Assembly: GCF_900141755.1 (NCBI RefSeq)
Contig: NZ_LT670844.1
Location: forward strand, 3,472,001-3,536,000
Source of the DNA: Bradyrhizobium lablabi
Lineage (GTDB): Bacteria > Pseudomonadota > Alphaproteobacteria > Rhizobiales > Xanthobacteraceae
Direction: 5' to 3'
Length of the DNA: 64,000 nucleotides
Position numbers and translations under genes: made by a program. The notes below the pieces were generated by a model. That model did no database searches and was not told where the DNA came from. It was given only the letters and a program-made list of their open reading frames with translations. The stretch's first letter is position 1; each line of letters begins with the position of its first letter. Positions 35,051 to 45,087 of this stretch are shown piece after piece.

Positions 35051-36676
35051 CTAACCCCCCGGCGCGAACGACTCCGCGCGCGCCAGCGCCCAGCCGTCGC
35101 GAAAACGCGGATCGCTGGTGCCGTCGATCAGTTCGCCCGGCAGCAGCGAGGGATAGAGCTGCGCGAAGGAACGCACCTCGGTCGTGGAAGATCGCTGCGA
35201 GAAATGGATCGGCCGCAATTCCTGCGGATGTTCGAGGCCCGCGGCGGCGATCAATTCAGCCAGCGCGTGCAGGGTGGCGTGGTGATAATTGTAGACCCGC
35301 TCCACCTTGTGCGGCACCACCAGCGCGCGCTGGCGGGTCGGGTCCTGGGTGGTCACGCCGGTCGGGCAGCGGTCGGTGTGGCAGGACAGCGACTGGATGC
35401 AGCCGAGCGCGAACATGAAGCCGCGGGCCGAATTGCACCAGTCGGCGCCGATCGCCATCGCGCGCGCCATGTCGAAGGCGGTCGCGATCTTGCCGGCGGC
35501 GCCGATCCGGATACGATCGCGCGCATTGATGCCGACCAGCGCGTTATGAACGAAGTTGACGCCCTCGCGCATCGGCATGCCCATATGGTCCATGAATTCC
35601 AGCGGCGCCGCGCCGGTGCCGCCTTCATTGCCGTCGACCACGATGAAATCCGGATAGATCCCCGTCTGCAGCATTGCCTTGCAGATCGCCAGAAATTCCC
35701 AGGGGTGGCCGATGCAAAGCTTGAAGCCGGCCGGCTTGCCGCCGGACAGCCGCCGCATCTCGCCGATGAAGGCCATCATTTCCAGCGGCGTCGAAAACGC
35801 CCGGTGGGTCGCCGGCGAAATGCAGTCCTCGCCCATCGCGACGCCCCTGATCCTTGATATCTCCTCGGAAACCTTGGCCGCCGGAAGCACGCCGCCATGG
35901 CCGGGCTTGGCGCCCTGGCTGACCTTGAGTTCGACCATCTTGATCTGGTCGTCGGACGCGACGCGGGAAAATTCTTCCGGATTGAACGAGCCGTCGCGGT
36001 TGCGGCAGCCGAAATAGCCGGAGCCGACCTCCCAGATCAGGTCGCCGCCGTTCTCGCGATGATAGGGGCTGACGCCGCCCTCGCCGGTGTCATGCGCGAA
36101 GCCGCCCTTTTTCGCACCCGCATTCAGCGCCCGCACCGCGTTCGGACTAAGCGCGCCAAAACTCATCGCCGAGATGTTGAACACCGATGCCGAATACGGC
36201 TTGACGCAATCCGGCCCGCCGATGGTGACGCGGAAATTCGCGTCGGCACGTGCTTTCGGCGCCACCGAATGGTGGATCCATTCATAACCCTCGCGATAGA
36301 CATCCTCTTGCGTTCCGAACGGCCGCTTGTCGAGCACCATCTTGGCGCGCTGATAGATCAGCGAACGGGTGTCGCGACTGAACGGCATGCCGTCCTTCTC
36401 GCTCTCGAAGAAGTATTGCCGCATCTCGGGGCGGATCTCTTCCAGCAGGAAGCGCAGATGCGCCGAGATCGGATAGTTTCGCAACACCGCGTGATTTTGC
36501 TGCAAGAGGTCGCGAATGCCGAGAGCCGTCAGCCCGCCAAAAATGAGGATCGGTATCAGGACCAGATCGAACACCTTGCGATCGAAGATCCCAAGCCCAA
36601 GCAGCAAGGCCGTCACGACGCCGCAAATCGTCAGAACGATGAAGCGCGGCGAGAACGGAAGCATCAGTGTTTCCAT
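35051..36676 (-). CDS. FMN-binding glutamate synthase-family protein
   Basis: A 541-residue protein with an N-terminal membrane segment (IVLTICGVVTALLLGLGI and a second hydrophobic stretch to about residue 50) and a GltB-like FMN barrel. FMN and substrate elements are DFIVVDGNEGGTGAAPLEFMDH and IGAAGKIATAFDMARAMAIGAD. The iron-sulfur cysteines are in CIQSLSCHTDRCPTGV. The amidotransferase domain of true glutamate synthase is absent, so this is a membrane-tethered relative of uncertain reaction. The start at 36676 has GAGGGG 5 bases upstream. Confidence 0.88.
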   Translation of the reverse strand: METLMLPFSPRFIVLTICGVVTALLLGLGIFDRKVFDLVLIPILIFGGLTALGIRDLLQQNHAVLRNYPISAHLRFLLEEIRPEMRQYFFESEKDGMPFSRDTRSLIYQRAKMVLDKRPFGTQEDVYREGYEWIHHSVAPKARADANFRVTIGGPDCVKPYSASVFNISAMSFGALSPNAVRALNAGAKKGGFAHDTGEGGVSPYHRENGGDLIWEVGSGYFGCRNRDGSFNPEEFSRVASDDQIKMVELKVSQGAKPGHGGVLPAAKVSEEISRIRGVAMGEDCISPATHRAFSTPLEMMAFIGEMRRLSGGKPAGFKLCIGHPWEFLAICKAMLQTGIYPDFIVVDGNEGGTGAAPLEFMDHMGMPMREGVNFVHNALVGINARDRIRIGAAGKIATAFDMARAMAIGADWCNSARGFMFALGCIQSLSCHTDRCPTGVTTQDPTRQRALVVPHKVERVYNYHHATLHALAELIAAAGLEHPQELRPIHFSQRSSTTEVRSFAQLYPSLLPGELIDGTSDPRFRDGWALARAESFAPGG

Positions 36677-38130: not shown

Positions 38131-38904
38131 TTACCGCTCCACGAACGCCTTTTCGATCACAAAGTGGCCGGGCTCGCTGTGATTGCCTTCGAGAAAACCG
38201 CGCGCGTCGAACATGGCGCGCAATTCTTCCAGCATCGCCGGGCTGCCGCACATCATGATGCGGTCGGTTTCGAGTGAGAGCGGGCCCTGGCCGATATCGT
38301 TGAACAACTGTTCTGAGGTGATCAGGTCGGTGATGCGGCCGCGGTTGCGGAACGGTTCGCGGGTGACGGTCGGATAATACACCAGCTTCTCGGTCAAGAG
38401 CGGTCCGAACAATTCGTCGTCGCGCAGTTTTGCCACCAGCTCTTCTCCATAAGCGAGTTCGGAAACCTGCCGGCAGCCATGGACCAGCACGATGGTTTCA
38501 AACTGCTCATAGACGTCTGGATCCTTTATGAGGCTCGCGAACGGCGCGAGACCCGTTCCGGTCGACAGAAGCAGCAGGCGCTTTCCGGGAATGAGATTGT
38601 CCGAAACGAGCGTGCCGGTTGCCTTGCGCCCAACCAGGATGGTGTCGCCCTCTTTGATCTTCTGCAGCCGCGAGGTCAGCGGCCCATCGGCGACCTTGAT
38701 CGAGAAGAATTCCAATTCCTCCTCGTGATTGGCGCTCGCCATGCTGTAGGCGCGCAACAAGGGGCGGCCATCGACCTCGAGCCCGATCATGGCGAACTGG
38801 CCGTTCTGGAATCGAAAGCCGGAACTGCGGGTGGCTCGGAAGCTGAAAAGCGTGTCGGTCCAGTGCCGGACAGAAAGAACTTTCTCTCTATTAAATGCGC
38901 TCAT
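38131..38904 (-). CDS. fpr: Ferredoxin-NADP(+) reductase
   Basis: A 257-residue FAD enzyme of the bacterial subclass. FAD-binding RAYSMASANHEEELEFFSIKV, phosphate-binding GTGLAPFASLIKDP, and MMCGSPAML in the NADP domain are all present. The C-terminus ends FVIEKAFVER, the extended type typical of proteobacterial Fpr that stacks over FAD. It moves electrons between NADPH and ferredoxin or flavodoxin, often under oxidative stress. I start at ATG 38904; the longer open frame upstream has no family similarity. Confidence 0.95.
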   Translation of the reverse strand: MSAFNREKVLSVRHWTDTLFSFRATRSSGFRFQNGQFAMIGLEVDGRPLLRAYSMASANHEEELEFFSIKVADGPLTSRLQKIKEGDTILVGRKATGTLVSDNLIPGKRLLLLSTGTGLAPFASLIKDPDVYEQFETIVLVHGCRQVSELAYGEELVAKLRDDELFGPLLTEKLVYYPTVTREPFRNRGRITDLITSEQLFNDIGQGPLSLETDRIMMCGSPAMLEELRAMFDARGFLEGNHSEPGHFVIEKAFVER

Positions 38905-39224
38905 GGGATTTGGTTTTCCGTTGTCGCCTGGTGTAGAAGGATCACGTGGGTTCGGCCCCGGAAGAGGCAAAAACCCCTGCAATATCTGATGATTTAGCGT
39001 TTCAAATAGACTGCTGTCAGTGATAGTCAACACACATCGACGCGCATTTGACGGGCGAAATTGGCGGCCGGTTCGGCTACGGAAAAGCTTTGCTGCGGAT
39101 CGCCGCCGTCGCGCAATTAACTTGCTGGAATCGGGCTCCGATCGAGCAGTTAATTGCCCCACGAGGGCAAAAATTTCGTTAAGAGTAAAATCTCAAAACA
39201 AAATGCCAGATCGCCTGATATCGC
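38905..39224. other. 320-base divergent intergenic region
   Basis: No gene is supported between fpr and the ATP-grasp gene. It contains a small dyad TTGCCC-CACGA-GGGCAA (39154-39170). Promoters for both genes must lie here, but I see no box pair that stands out. Confidence 0.5.
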
Positions 39225-40226
39225 ATGCGCAGCCTTGAGACATTTCGATCGGGAAAGCCGGGTTTTTATCCGGACCAGGCGGTCTATGCGGAATTCGCCT
39301 GCGCGCAATTCGGCCTCGCGTTTCAGGACAAGGACGGCGGAACGGGACTCCTGTTCACCGTGGCCTCAAAGACCAAAAGCGTCCATTTCGGCGCCGGGCG
39401 TGCTTCGTGGTATCCGCAAAACGGCGCCACGGCCTCGACGCTGGCATCGGACAAATATTTCACCAACAAGATCCTCCAAGACGCCGGCATCGCCACGCTC
39501 GGCGGCGAATATTTCTTTCTGCATGACCGACACCGCGCCCATCGCCCCGCGGGCCATGAGCGCGAAGACGCGCTCGCGTATTTCAGAAGACTGGGCGGCA
39601 CGGCGTTCATCAAGCCGCTGCAGGGATCGCGCGGCGATTTCGCGCAAGTGCTTCACGGCGAAGCGGCGCTGGTTGGATATTTTGATGAGGTCTCGAAATA
39701 TTACGATGCGGTCTTGGTCCAGCGCGCTGTCACTGGATTAGAACACCGGATTTTCCTGCTGGATGACGAAGTGGTCTATTCGGCGCGAAAATATCCGCCC
39801 TTTTTGCTGGGCGATGGCATTAGCCCGATCCGCGATCTCCTGACCACGCATAACGCGGCCTTGCGCTCGCGCGGACTTTCACCCGCTGCCGCCAGCCACG
39901 ATGTTTCGCTCGACACAGTGCTGGCAAAGGGCGAGCGCTGGAACATTCCCGGGCGGACCAACCTCAGCGCGGGCGGAACGATGGTGATCGAGGCGCCCTA
40001 TTCCGATGCGGCCATCGCGCTGGCGCGCAAGGCCGCGCGGACGCTCGGACTGCGGGTTGCCGCCGTCGATCTCTTCACCGATATCGGCGGTGATCCCAAG
40101 GCGATCGGGATCATCGAGGTGAACTCCAATCCGTCGATCCGGCTCCTGGAAGAGTCCGGCCGCGGCGACCTGATCCTGAAAATCTGGCAGCACACATTTC
40201 TGGCGATGGGATTATTGGGTGTTTGA
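39225..40226 (+). CDS. ATP-grasp ligase resembling the central domain of cyanophycin synthetase
   Basis: A 333-residue ATP-grasp protein. ATP-binding Lys130 is in FIKPLQGSRGDF. The stretch LLGDGISPIRDLL (194-206), NLSAGGT (246-252), ALARKAARTLGLRVAAVDLFTD (265-286) and metal-binding E298-x-N300 in IIEVNSNPSIR follow the order of the CphA/GshF-type ATP-grasp domain, where NLSxGG is characteristic. ATP-grasp ligases form an acyl phosphate and join it to an amine. No CphA N-terminal domain is present. The gene overlaps the downstream Mur-ligase-like gene by 8 bases. A short frame at 39203-39238 overlaps its start and could couple translation. The substrate is unknown. Confidence 0.85.
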   Translation: MRSLETFRSGKPGFYPDQAVYAEFACAQFGLAFQDKDGGTGLLFTVASKTKSVHFGAGRASWYPQNGATASTLASDKYFTNKILQDAGIATLGGEYFFLHDRHRAHRPAGHEREDALAYFRRLGGTAFIKPLQGSRGDFAQVLHGEAALVGYFDEVSKYYDAVLVQRAVTGLEHRIFLLDDEVVYSARKYPPFLLGDGISPIRDLLTTHNAALRSRGLSPAAASHDVSLDTVLAKGERWNIPGRTNLSAGGTMVIEAPYSDAAIALARKAARTLGLRVAAVDLFTDIGGDPKAIGIIEVNSNPSIRLLEESGRGDLILKIWQHTFLAMGLLGV

Positions 40227-41535
40227 TCTGCCAAAATACGGCGACGGGGTCTGCCTGGCGCGGCTGGCGGCGTTACTCGACGCGCTCGCGATCGATCGCG
40301 CAAGGCTGTCGCGCATGTCGGTGGTGGTGACGGGGTCGAACGGCAAGGGTTCAACGGCAGCGTTCTGCGCCGGCATCGCCCGCGCCTACGGCTTGCGAAC
40401 GGGGCTGTTCACCTCGCCGCACCTCTATCGTGTCAACGAACGGTTTCAGGTCGATGGCAAGCCTGTTGCCGACGATGACCTCGCGCGGCTTGCTTCGCGG
40501 ATCACGGCCGCCATTGCCGATATCACGCAACGCGGCGGTGAAAAATTCGGAAGCTTTGAGGCGATGTTCGCACTGGCCTGCCTGCATTTTCAGGAGAGCG
40601 ATTGCGATTTCGCCGTGTTCGAGGCCGGCATCGGCGGCCGCTACGACCCGGTCCGTCTGGTCGGCGCGCGCACCACTTGCGTGACGTCGGTCGATTACGA
40701 GCATGTCGAATTGCTCGGCCATTCCCTGGAACTGATCGCGTCCGACAAAAGCGACGCCTGCGCGTCTGGCGGCACGATCGTCTATGGCGAAAATTGCCGA
40801 AAGCTCGCGCCGCATCTGACCGAATATAACCGCTTTCGCGGGGTCATGCCGCTGTTTGTCCACGACCAAATCGGGATCGGCGGCGAAGCCAGCTCCTCGT
40901 CGACGCAGCGGTTCGACTTCGCGCTCGAAGCTTATGATTTTCGCGCCCTCGAAACCAACCTGCTCGGCGCCTTTCAGTTCAACAATGCGGCGATCGCGAC
41001 CGCTTTGTTCCTGCTCTGGCTGCAGGACAAGCGACCCGGCGAAAGGCGCGCTGCCATCGAATTAGCCGTGCGATCGGGGCTGCGCGAGGTGCGCTGGCCC
41101 GGCCGTCTCGAAGTCATCAGGCAAGACCCGCTCACCTTGATCGACGTCGGCCATACGCCTGACGGCATCAGGCAATCGCTCGCCAGCCTGAAGGCGATCT
41201 ACGGTGAAGAGGGCTGGGTGCTCGTCACCGGCGTTTCCCGCGACAAGAAGGCAGGTGAGATCGTGGGCGCGCTGGCGCCGTCGTTCGACACTATTATCTG
41301 CACCATGGCGCACCATAAGGGCGCGGACGCCGAGACGATTGCGACTACGGCGCGCAAGGCCAACCCGCAGGCGGCCGTTCACATCGCAAAAACCATCGAG
41401 GACGCCGTGAGCTTGAGCGAGAGGCTCGCCGCGTCGGAGAGCCGAAAGATCTATGTGGCCGGCGGATTATTTTTGGCGATCGAATACGCGGTCGTCGCGA
41501 GCGGCGGCCGCGCACCGGATTTGGATTTTTTCTAA
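40219..41535 (+). CDS. Mur ligase/FolC-like amide ligase paired with the ATP-grasp protein
   Basis: A 438-residue ligase starting at GTG 40219, inside the end of the preceding gene. P-loop TGSNGKGST (38-46), FTSPHLYRVNERFQVDG (64-80, the FolC omega-loop-like signature), EAGIGGRYDP, SVDYEHVELLGHSLELIASDKSDA (with the Lys expected to be carbamylated), and WPGRLEVI and DVGHTPDGIRQ in the C-terminal domain are all as in folylpolyglutamate synthase. Such enzymes add glutamate or other amino acids through acyl phosphates. FolC proper usually pairs with accD. Here the partner is a CphA-like ATP-grasp gene, so the two may build a peptide or amino-acid polymer. Confidence 0.85.
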   Translation: MFDLPKYGDGVCLARLAALLDALAIDRARLSRMSVVVTGSNGKGSTAAFCAGIARAYGLRTGLFTSPHLYRVNERFQVDGKPVADDDLARLASRITAAIADITQRGGEKFGSFEAMFALACLHFQESDCDFAVFEAGIGGRYDPVRLVGARTTCVTSVDYEHVELLGHSLELIASDKSDACASGGTIVYGENCRKLAPHLTEYNRFRGVMPLFVHDQIGIGGEASSSSTQRFDFALEAYDFRALETNLLGAFQFNNAAIATALFLLWLQDKRPGERRAAIELAVRSGLREVRWPGRLEVIRQDPLTLIDVGHTPDGIRQSLASLKAIYGEEGWVLVTGVSRDKKAGEIVGALAPSFDTIICTMAHHKGADAETIATTARKANPQAAVHIAKTIEDAVSLSERLAASESRKIYVAGGLFLAIEYAVVASGGRAPDLDFF

Positions 41536-43871: not shown

Positions 43872-44085
43872 TTGCTTACCCCCGTAAGTTCCGGCGGCGA
43901 CGAGTTTGGCAGATTTTGGGGGCGACGCAACTCGCTTCCCCGGATCGACGGGTTTGCTACAATGTTCCCGTTGCGGGATGAACGTCCGCCGACTAGCGTC
44001 GTGCGCAACGCACAATGTGTGCAGGGTGCGCGTTTCCTGCGCGTCAATTGCATCAAGAAGCGTCACTTCGAGGGGAGAGAAAGCC

Positions 44086-45087
44086 ATGAGCGACACCGTC
44101 AACCGACAGGTCTTGCTGGTCGAGAAGCCGGCTGGGAAACTAGGGCCGGAGCATTTCAAGATGGCCAAGGCGACCATCCCCGAGCCCAAGGACGGCGAGG
44201 TGCTGGTGCGCCTGCGCTACATCTCGCTCGATGCCGCCAACCGGGCCTGGATGCACGGCGCGACCTATCGCGCGGCGGTCGAGGCCAACACAGTGATGGC
44301 CGGCGGCGGCATCGGCGAGGTGGTATCGTCGAAGGCGCCGGGGCTTGCGCCGGGCGACATTGTGTTCGGCGATACCGGCTGGCAGGATTACGCGGCTGTC
44401 CCCGCAAAACATCTGACCAAGATGCCGAAGGTCGAGCCGATGACGCATCTGCTCAGCGTCTACGGCATCGCCGGCCTCACCGCCTATTTCGGACTGCTCG
44501 ACATCGGCAAGCCTAAAGCCGGCGAGACCGTCGTGGTGTCAGCCGCGGCCGGTTCGGTCGGCTCGATCGTCGGCCAGATCGCCAAGATCAAAGGCTGCAA
44601 GGTCGTCGGCATCGCCGGCGGCAAGGACAAGTGCAACTGGCTGACGCGTGAGCTCGGCTTCGATGCCGCGGTCGATTACAAGGACGGCGCGGTGTTCAAG
44701 GCGCTCAAGGCCGCGGCGCCCAACGGCATCGATGTCTATTTCGACAATGTCGGCGGCGACATTCTCGAGGCGTGTCTGTCGCAGATGAACAATCGCGGCC
44801 GCATCGCCTGCTGCGGCGCGATCTCGCAATATGACGGCGTGCCGTCGGCGCATGGCCCGCGCGGCGTGCCCGGCCTGATCGTCGTAAAACGTCTCATCAT
44901 GCAGGGTTTTATTGTGATGGACTTCATGGATCAACGCGATGAGGCGCTGAGCGATCTGCAATCCTGGGTCGCCTCCGGCAAACTGAAGGTCCAGGAGGAC
45001 GTCATCAACGGGCTGGAGAACACGCCGAAGGCGCTGATTGGATTATTGGCCGGTGAAAACCGCGGCAAGCGGATGGTGAAGGTGTAA
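44086..45087 (+). CDS. NADPH-dependent medium-chain oxidoreductase (CurA/LTB4DH-like)
   Basis: A 333-residue MDR-superfamily enzyme without zinc ligands. NADPH-binding AAAGSVGSIVGQIAK (about 154-168), then the substrate tail GKLKVQEDVINGLENTPKALIGLLAGENRGKRMVKV, which is nearly diagnostic for the CurA/prostaglandin reductase branch. It would reduce alpha,beta-unsaturated carbonyls. GAGGGGAGAG precedes ATG 44086. The upstream open frame to 43906 crosses the dctA promoter and is not used. Confidence 0.9.
   Translation: MSDTVNRQVLLVEKPAGKLGPEHFKMAKATIPEPKDGEVLVRLRYISLDAANRAWMHGATYRAAVEANTVMAGGGIGEVVSSKAPGLAPGDIVFGDTGWQDYAAVPAKHLTKMPKVEPMTHLLSVYGIAGLTAYFGLLDIGKPKAGETVVVSAAAGSVGSIVGQIAKIKGCKVVGIAGGKDKCNWLTRELGFDAAVDYKDGAVFKALKAAAPNGIDVYFDNVGGDILEACLSQMNNRGRIACCGAISQYDGVPSAHGPRGVPGLIVVKRLIMQGFIVMDFMDQRDEALSDLQSWVASGKLKVQEDVINGLENTPKALIGLLAGENRGKRMVKV

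Follow-up and report, generated by a model that had tools for sequence, protein, structure and literature searches.

A FolC-family Mur ligase and an ATP-grasp ligase inherited as a pair in Bradyrhizobium and related bacteria, and a lone ATP-grasp protein at the same locus

Two overlapping genes of the window, the 64 kb stretch of Bradyrhizobium lablabi DNA analysed here, encode a stand-alone ATP-grasp ligase (ATPg) and a Mur ligase of the FolC family (FolCL); the two occur in the same sampled genomes of the family and are always adjacent, and in other Bradyrhizobium genomes their place is taken by a single, diverged ATP-grasp protein. Because the genes are linked and the catalytic chemistry of their products is kept, we favour the reading, with a probability of about 0.55, that ATPg and FolCL form a single unit, in which two ATP-dependent carboxylate-amine ligases work in series on the same small acceptor. 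Each enzyme is a member of a known superfamily; the strict pair and the lone ATP-grasp that replaces it are new as far as our searches of open-access literature go, which listed no description of either. The features of the locus are (positions in the window):

35051..36676, minus strand: glutamate-synthase-like FMN protein (PF01645), 541 amino acids, with a hydrophobic N-terminus
Upstream of ATPg and divergent from it: patatin gene (family match)
38131..39162 as listed, minus strand: ferredoxin-NADP-reductase-like gene (fnr), divergent from ATPg and upstream of it; the likely ATG is near 38904, at the start of the conserved protein
39112..39158, no strand: conserved element GCAATTAACTTGCTG..AGTTAATTGCC, AT-rich and partly palindromic, between the divergent fnr and ATPg
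39225..40226, plus strand: ATPg, 333 amino acids, ATG start, stand-alone ATP-grasp ligase resembling the G domain of cyanophycin synthetase (CphA), without the CphA N domain
40219..40226, plus strand: 8 bases common to the coding regions of ATPg and FolCL
40219..41535, plus strand: FolCL, 438 amino acids, GTG start, Mur ligase of the FolC family
Downstream of FolCL, minus strand: genes for a solute-binding protein and a dicarboxylate-type transporter (family matches)
43906..45087, plus strand: zinc-type oxidoreductase, downstream of the transporter genes

The names fnr and dicarboxylate transporter were assigned in this analysis.

Pairing of the two genes

The 8-base overlap described in the initial annotation is present (bases 40219-40226 belong to both open reading frames), and the motifs that it had read from the translations, NLSAGGT and IIEVNSNPSIR in ATPg and TGSNGKGST in FolCL, are all found as written. 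Among 83 locus rows, in which many genomes are entered twice, the distance from ATPg to FolCL is -8 in 40, -1 in 29, 0 in 12 and +8 in 2, and is thus zero or less in 81 of 83 rows; we infer that translation of the two genes is coupled through the overlap.

Co-occurrence, which had been proposed as a check on the pair, was surveyed in 296 genomes of the family: ATPg is present in 39 (E ≤ 1e-20), FolCL is present in the identical 39 (E ≤ 1e-90; the stricter threshold excludes canonical FolC), and the coordinates place the two genes next to each other on the same contig in 39/39. The carriers belong to the genus of the window (g1, 7 genomes) and to g3 (16), g127 (2), g147 (7) and g159 (7). A scan of named genomes, with patterns derived from the window's protein, found the pair at 25 of 26 loci, the remaining one stopping at a contig edge after 23 residues of ATPg (L046); B. 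jicamae, B. lablabi, B. retamae and B. valentinum are among the Bradyrhizobium that have it.

The pairing is not accidental. The initial annotation had allowed for chance, should FolCL be the only folC of the genome and ATPg not be conserved beside it; ATPg is conserved beside FolCL, and the window's genome (G000, 7.91 Mb in one contig) has a separate canonical folC (G000:C1:3966250-3967479) that scores 352 bits, compared with 255.3 bits for FolCL, and lies near matches to accD, trpB and trxA in the order trxA, folC, accD, trpB. As the genome retains its own folC near accD and trpB, FolCL is probably not the housekeeping FolC.

The pair is also found beyond the family. In the class, 7 of 376 genomes match ATPg at 1e-18, namely the window's genome and six outside the family, and in three of these six (G973, G1045 and G1140) FolCL is directly downstream of ATPg. 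G973 belongs to one family, G1045 and G1140 to one genus of another family of the same class; the identity to the proteins of the window is 33-40% for ATPg and 36-39% for FolCL, and the pair of G1140 sits on a 3.6 kb contig. No match to FolCL lies beside the ATPg of G942 and G1032, and in G996 ATPg is at a contig edge, with a UvrA-like gene on the one side that is visible. When 11 other relatives of G1045 were searched, only G1140 and G942 gave matches; a protein search with the ATPg of G1045 returned 17 proteins, which come without gene context, and the first protein search covered the best 120 of 1968 matches.

In the order, 7 of 297 genomes match ATPg at 1e-20; four are of the family and three have distant ATP-grasps, with no match to FolCL within their 1.5 kb flanks. 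Two distant lone ATP-grasps of another family (L048, L049) stand, by our reading of the sequences, after FtsK-like and LolA-like genes. In the phylum, 10 of 398 genomes match at 1e-15, four of them of the family and six in large frames of 863-1355 amino acids, as are those of CphA. Plasmids gave 14 records that match ATPg, all at less than 60% identity and 13 of them annotated as cyanophycin synthetase, and phages gave two small, unannotated records. A search for ATPg-FolCL fusions with the ATPg part of the joined pair, in which the 7994 candidates with most shared words were scored, yielded five singletons; these are partial and, by our reading, frameshifted rather than true fusions.

Families and conserved residues of the two ligases

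Both proteins were compared with the HMMs of CphA, FolC and MurE, as the initial annotation had suggested, and ATPg proved CphA-G-like and FolCL FolC-like. Judged by its profile matches, FolCL is a member of the FolC family and not a CphA M domain: its top NCBIfam model is folC (TIGR01499, 255.5 bits, above the cut-off of 162.65), and murE (TIGR01085) and CphA (TIGR02068) give 53.2 and 25.4 bits. In the earlier description of FolCL as FolC/MurE-like, the FolC part is thus borne out and the MurE part is not. The models of pMurC and pMurE give about 19 bits each (cut-offs 560 and 600), and the nearest PDB sequence is the FPGS of L. casei (1fgs, 139.9 bits). With the DHFS/FPGS equivalogs FolCL scores 119.3 (NF008101, cut-off 360) and 175.8 (NF047860, cut-off 700); the canonical FolC of L173, which comes from the same class, is likewise below both cut-offs, with 190.5 and 181.8.

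The catalytic core of FolCL (P-loop, TSPH serine, Mg-binding Glu and His, carbamylated Lys) is complete in 58/58 rows of paired homologues, and K43, S45, S66, E135, H162, K177, D309 and H312 are kept in all of them; for K43, S45, S66, E135, H162 and K177 we assume the roles that these residues have in known FolC enzymes. One row in a wrong reading frame (L005, 'mur') was left out of the residue counts and the tree. FolCL also keeps F113 and D143, counterparts of residues that line the pterin site in E. coli FolC. In place of DATN the motif reads D..R, R146 standing where N would be in 58/58 rows; N is present in both canonical FolCs compared. This replacement suggests that the acceptor pocket of FolCL is changed relative to canonical FolC. 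FolCL thus resembles FolC/FPGS in its TIGR01499 and 1fgs scores and in its core catalytic positions, and differs in the 27% identity (blastp) to the FolC of its own genome, in the DATN motif and in having an ATP-grasp partner.

The top NCBIfam model of ATPg is cyanophycin synthetase (TIGR02068), with 92.9 bits at a cut-off of 850; the match spans profile positions 202-451 of 862, which is the G region only, and the N domain is absent. CphA1 provides the top PDB sequences (7lgn, 7lgm, 7wac), and the fold comparison likewise gives a CphA-G-like fold without the N domain, which ArgX fits as well as CphA does. The Pfam match is weak (RimK, 21.0 bits, at the cut-off), the scores with rimK_fam (37.3, cut-off 143.4), MptN (30.1 bits, cut-off 350) and RimK PRK10446 (17.9, cut-off 331) are far below what these families require, and the CofF model is absent among the profile matches at E ≤ 1. 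In the parts of their descriptions available to us, none of the alpha- or polyglutamate ligases MptN, CofF, RimK, MyfA and MyfB is described as paired with a FolC-like ligase. Among the nearest known systems are also the ligases of archaeal pseudomurein, a cell wall: one account of its genes names ATP-grasp and Mur ligases together (PMC11915815).

Ten residues of the TeCphA1 G domain (E215, K220, K261, H267, R309, R323, N394, D431, E450 and R458) were compared, based on the accessible part of a study in which Glu215 contacts the Arg side chain of the polymer and R458 is near the alpha-carboxylate of the substrate Asp (PMC9427784); N394, D431, E450 and R458 were counted by script and the other six positions were read by eye from alignments. 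ATPg keeps the equivalents of K220, K261, R309, N394, D431 and E450 and has K for R323; the equivalents of H267 and E215 are not conserved. Among six distant ATPg relatives, the equivalents of R309, N394 and D431 are kept and E450 is D in one. An Arg equivalent to R458 is present in 17/17 family rows and in 0/6 distant rows, and because it is missing from the latter, the amino-acid specificity of ATPg relatives may vary or differ from Asp.

CphA1 unites N, G and M domains in one protein, whereas ATPg and FolCL are separate polypeptides without an N domain; the partner step of CphA1 is that of its M domain, whereas the partner of ATPg is of the FolC family, and H267 and E215 of CphA1 have no conserved equivalents in ATPg. 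No locus in the window's genome reaches the CphA cut-off of 850 (TIGR02068) in a profile search, and cyanophycinase (TIGR02069) has no match there at E ≤ 0.001, in a search for which the control matches in 5 of 14 known genomes. The initial annotation likened the genes to a split cyanophycin synthetase. This is supported for a two-ligase unit, with pairing in 39/39 genomes, a CphA-G-like ATP-grasp without the N domain and no cyanophycinase match, but not for common descent: FolCL belongs to the FolC family, H267 and E215 are not conserved, and the clade of ATPg is separate from the CphA G domains in the ATP-grasp tree, which has long branches.

A lone ATP-grasp gene at the same locus

The surroundings of fnr were examined in 12 family genomes without the pair, 11 of Bradyrhizobium and one of another genus (G077). 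In 11/11 Bradyrhizobium the gene divergent from fnr encodes another ATP-grasp, here called type B, with the pair as type A; none was seen in the flanks of fnr of G077. Examples beside an fnr-like gene are:

L116:2560-3549: type-B ATP-grasp
L120:2646-3455: type-B ATP-grasp
L125:2557-3510: type-B ATP-grasp

The eleven type-B proteins form one family (E ≤ 5.3e-79 to the copy of L120), of which an ATPg query reaches four directly, with a best E of 1.5e-15. Their open reading frames have 267-377 amino acids as listed, some of the listed starts being too far upstream, and many copies (about 270 amino acids) lack a segment of about 50 residues that matches the G-omega region of CphA. In the ATP-grasp tree A and B are separate clades, at a place where long branches meet.

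Type B (E ≤ 1e-48) is present in 30 of the 296 family genomes, 20 of g1, nine of g147 and one of g165; G171, G194, G506, G521 and G571 were dropped from this count, as their matches (1e-22 to 1e-25) are cross-hits to ATPg itself. A and B never occur together in the 69 genomes that carry either. Within g1, every one of the 27 genomes has a single type (7 with A and 20 with B; none has both and none lacks both); were the labels independent, such exclusivity would have a probability of 1.1e-6, which is not a p-value, as the genomes are related. FolCL has no match at E ≤ 1e-90 in type-B genomes and no Mur partner stands beside type B. As type-B loci, and also G942 and G1032, have an ATP-grasp without FolCL, the ATP-grasp step can exist alone.

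A shared neighbour is found at 28 of the 30 type-B loci: the fnr-like gene adjoins type B at 20/20 loci of g1, and of the 10 loci outside g1, 8 have the glutamate-synthase-like gene next to type B, with no shared neighbour in the 1.5 kb flanks of L141 and L142. The glutamate-synthase-like gene also adjoins the type-A loci of g147. A tree of fnr, built from 62 rows of which 11 are of g3, requires three changes of the B label, all forced by well-supported branches, and the type-B genome G216 lies inside a 13-row clade with 12 A rows (support 99/99); this is not a species tree, and recombination may move fnr together with the module. The initial annotation was right in seeing the pair at this locus, and missed both the type-B alternative and the folate genes near ATPg outside the family. 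The replacement of A by B beside the same flanking gene provides natural A-type and B-type strains for comparison. With the PADLOC defence models, ATPg, FolCL and one type-B protein matched 0 families at E ≤ 1.

Possible acceptors and the surroundings of the locus

In the favoured reading, ATPg would activate a carboxylate of the acceptor by phosphorylation and link it to an amino acid. The resulting product would be the substrate of FolCL, which would phosphorylate one of its carboxylates in the FolC/Mur manner, with a P-loop, two Mg sites and a carbamylated lysine, and attach another amino acid. The scheme would parallel that of CphA, in which a G step precedes an M step, except that the enzymes are separate proteins, the second is of the FolC type and the acceptor is something other than cyanophycin. 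The order of the steps, the shared acceptor, the amino acids and the absence of a polymer are what we infer; the product would most likely be a short conjugate or a cofactor tail, and no finding favours a polymer, which was one of the products suggested initially. Uncharacterised ligase pairs of this kind are a direct route to undescribed metabolites.

The acceptor of the pair is possibly folate. MptN and CofF are ATP-grasp ligases that act on the tails of tetrahydromethanopterin and F420, and ATPg and FolCL might similarly be a module that lengthens or modifies the glutamyl chain of folate, adding, for instance, residues in alpha linkage or residues other than glutamate. This reading, which we regard as tentative and on balance unlikely, is drawn from the FolC kinship of FolCL (TIGR01499, with F113 and D143 kept) and from two gene contexts outside the family. 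In G1045 the genes are arranged as trpB..accD-folC-ATPg-FolCL (L173), followed by a trxA-like gene on the opposite strand; the trxA, folC, accD and trpB matches of the window's genome are arranged in this same order. In the gene string of G942 (L176:7077-10877), ATPg and thyA share 4 bases, and a GNAT and a DHFR-like gene, the latter scoring below curated cut-offs, follow about 0.9 kb downstream of ATPg, after a gap without a clear gene. The 30.1 bits of ATPg with MptN point the same way, although far below the cut-off of 350. However, these two are the only ones of the six outside genomes with folate genes nearby (such genes are absent in G973 and G1032, and the view is limited to one side of ATPg in G996 and to a 3.6 kb contig in G1140), and the link in G942 is a single case, with no FolCL beside ATPg and no homologue of this ATPg in 13 relatives (E ≤ 1e-20). 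The changed DATN motif also argues against folate, and the link was noticed after the data had been seen. Moreover, the neighbours in the window are not folate genes: queries with accD, trxA, trpB, thyA and the DHFR-like gene matched nowhere in the 64 kb (tblastn, E ≤ 1e-5) and canonical folC matched FolCL alone, which, with the negative TIGR02069 search of the genome, agrees with the initial annotation that no cyanophycinase, accD or folate gene is nearby. To our knowledge, the gene for alpha-linked folate tails is unassigned. Distal alpha linkages are reported for E. coli folate tails in the part of a study that was accessible (PMC1971073), which fits a folate-tail module, and if folate were the acceptor, the pair would bear on these tails.

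More doubtful still is a wider proposal, that an undescribed cofactor-tailing pathway has two interchangeable modules, A (ATP-grasp and FolC-like Mur ligase) and B (lone diverged ATP-grasp), of which the locus carries one or the other, repeatedly swapped at one site, and that both would modify folate or a folate-like pterin beyond plain gamma-polyglutamate, with A adding an extra residue.

A split, cyanophycin-like polymer synthase would explain why the closest profile match of ATPg is the CphA G domain, which is also at the head of its fold list, and why its strict partner in the family sample is a Mur-type ligase; yet we consider it very improbable, given the 25.4 bits of FolCL with CphA against 255.5 with folC, the missing N domain, the lack of a TIGR02069 match in the genome at E ≤ 0.001, the lack of conservation of H267 and E215 and the existence of type B without a Mur partner. 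That FolCL, which does pass the TIGR01499 subfamily cut-off, is just a superfluous extra FolC, with ATPg as an unrelated gene carried along beside it, is hardly credible in view of the adjacency in 39/39 genomes, the recurrence of the pair in three genomes of two other families, the altered DATN motif in 58/58 rows and the canonical folC in the same genome, in G1045 even in the same gene string.

The core pattern of the GCAATTAACTTGCTG..AGTTAATTGCC element occurs once in the window. With the window not counted, 30 of 54 type-A rows have an element of the GCAATTAACTTGCTG.. type at a distance of 71-114 nt before ATPg, namely 30/31 rows of the Bradyrhizobium type versus 0/23 other type-A rows; the pattern is present at 1/30 type-B loci (G216), with looser copies seen by eye at two or three more, and upstream of none of five distant ATPg genes checked. 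The element is a possible regulator site that could serve either divergent gene, fnr or ATPg, and it may belong to fnr.

The glutamate-synthase-like FMN protein (35051-36676) is encoded near both module types in several genera and may have a function connected with the locus. In several relatives (e.g. L024, L026 and L030) the zinc-type oxidoreductase directly follows FolCL on the same strand and may be transcribed there together with the pair.
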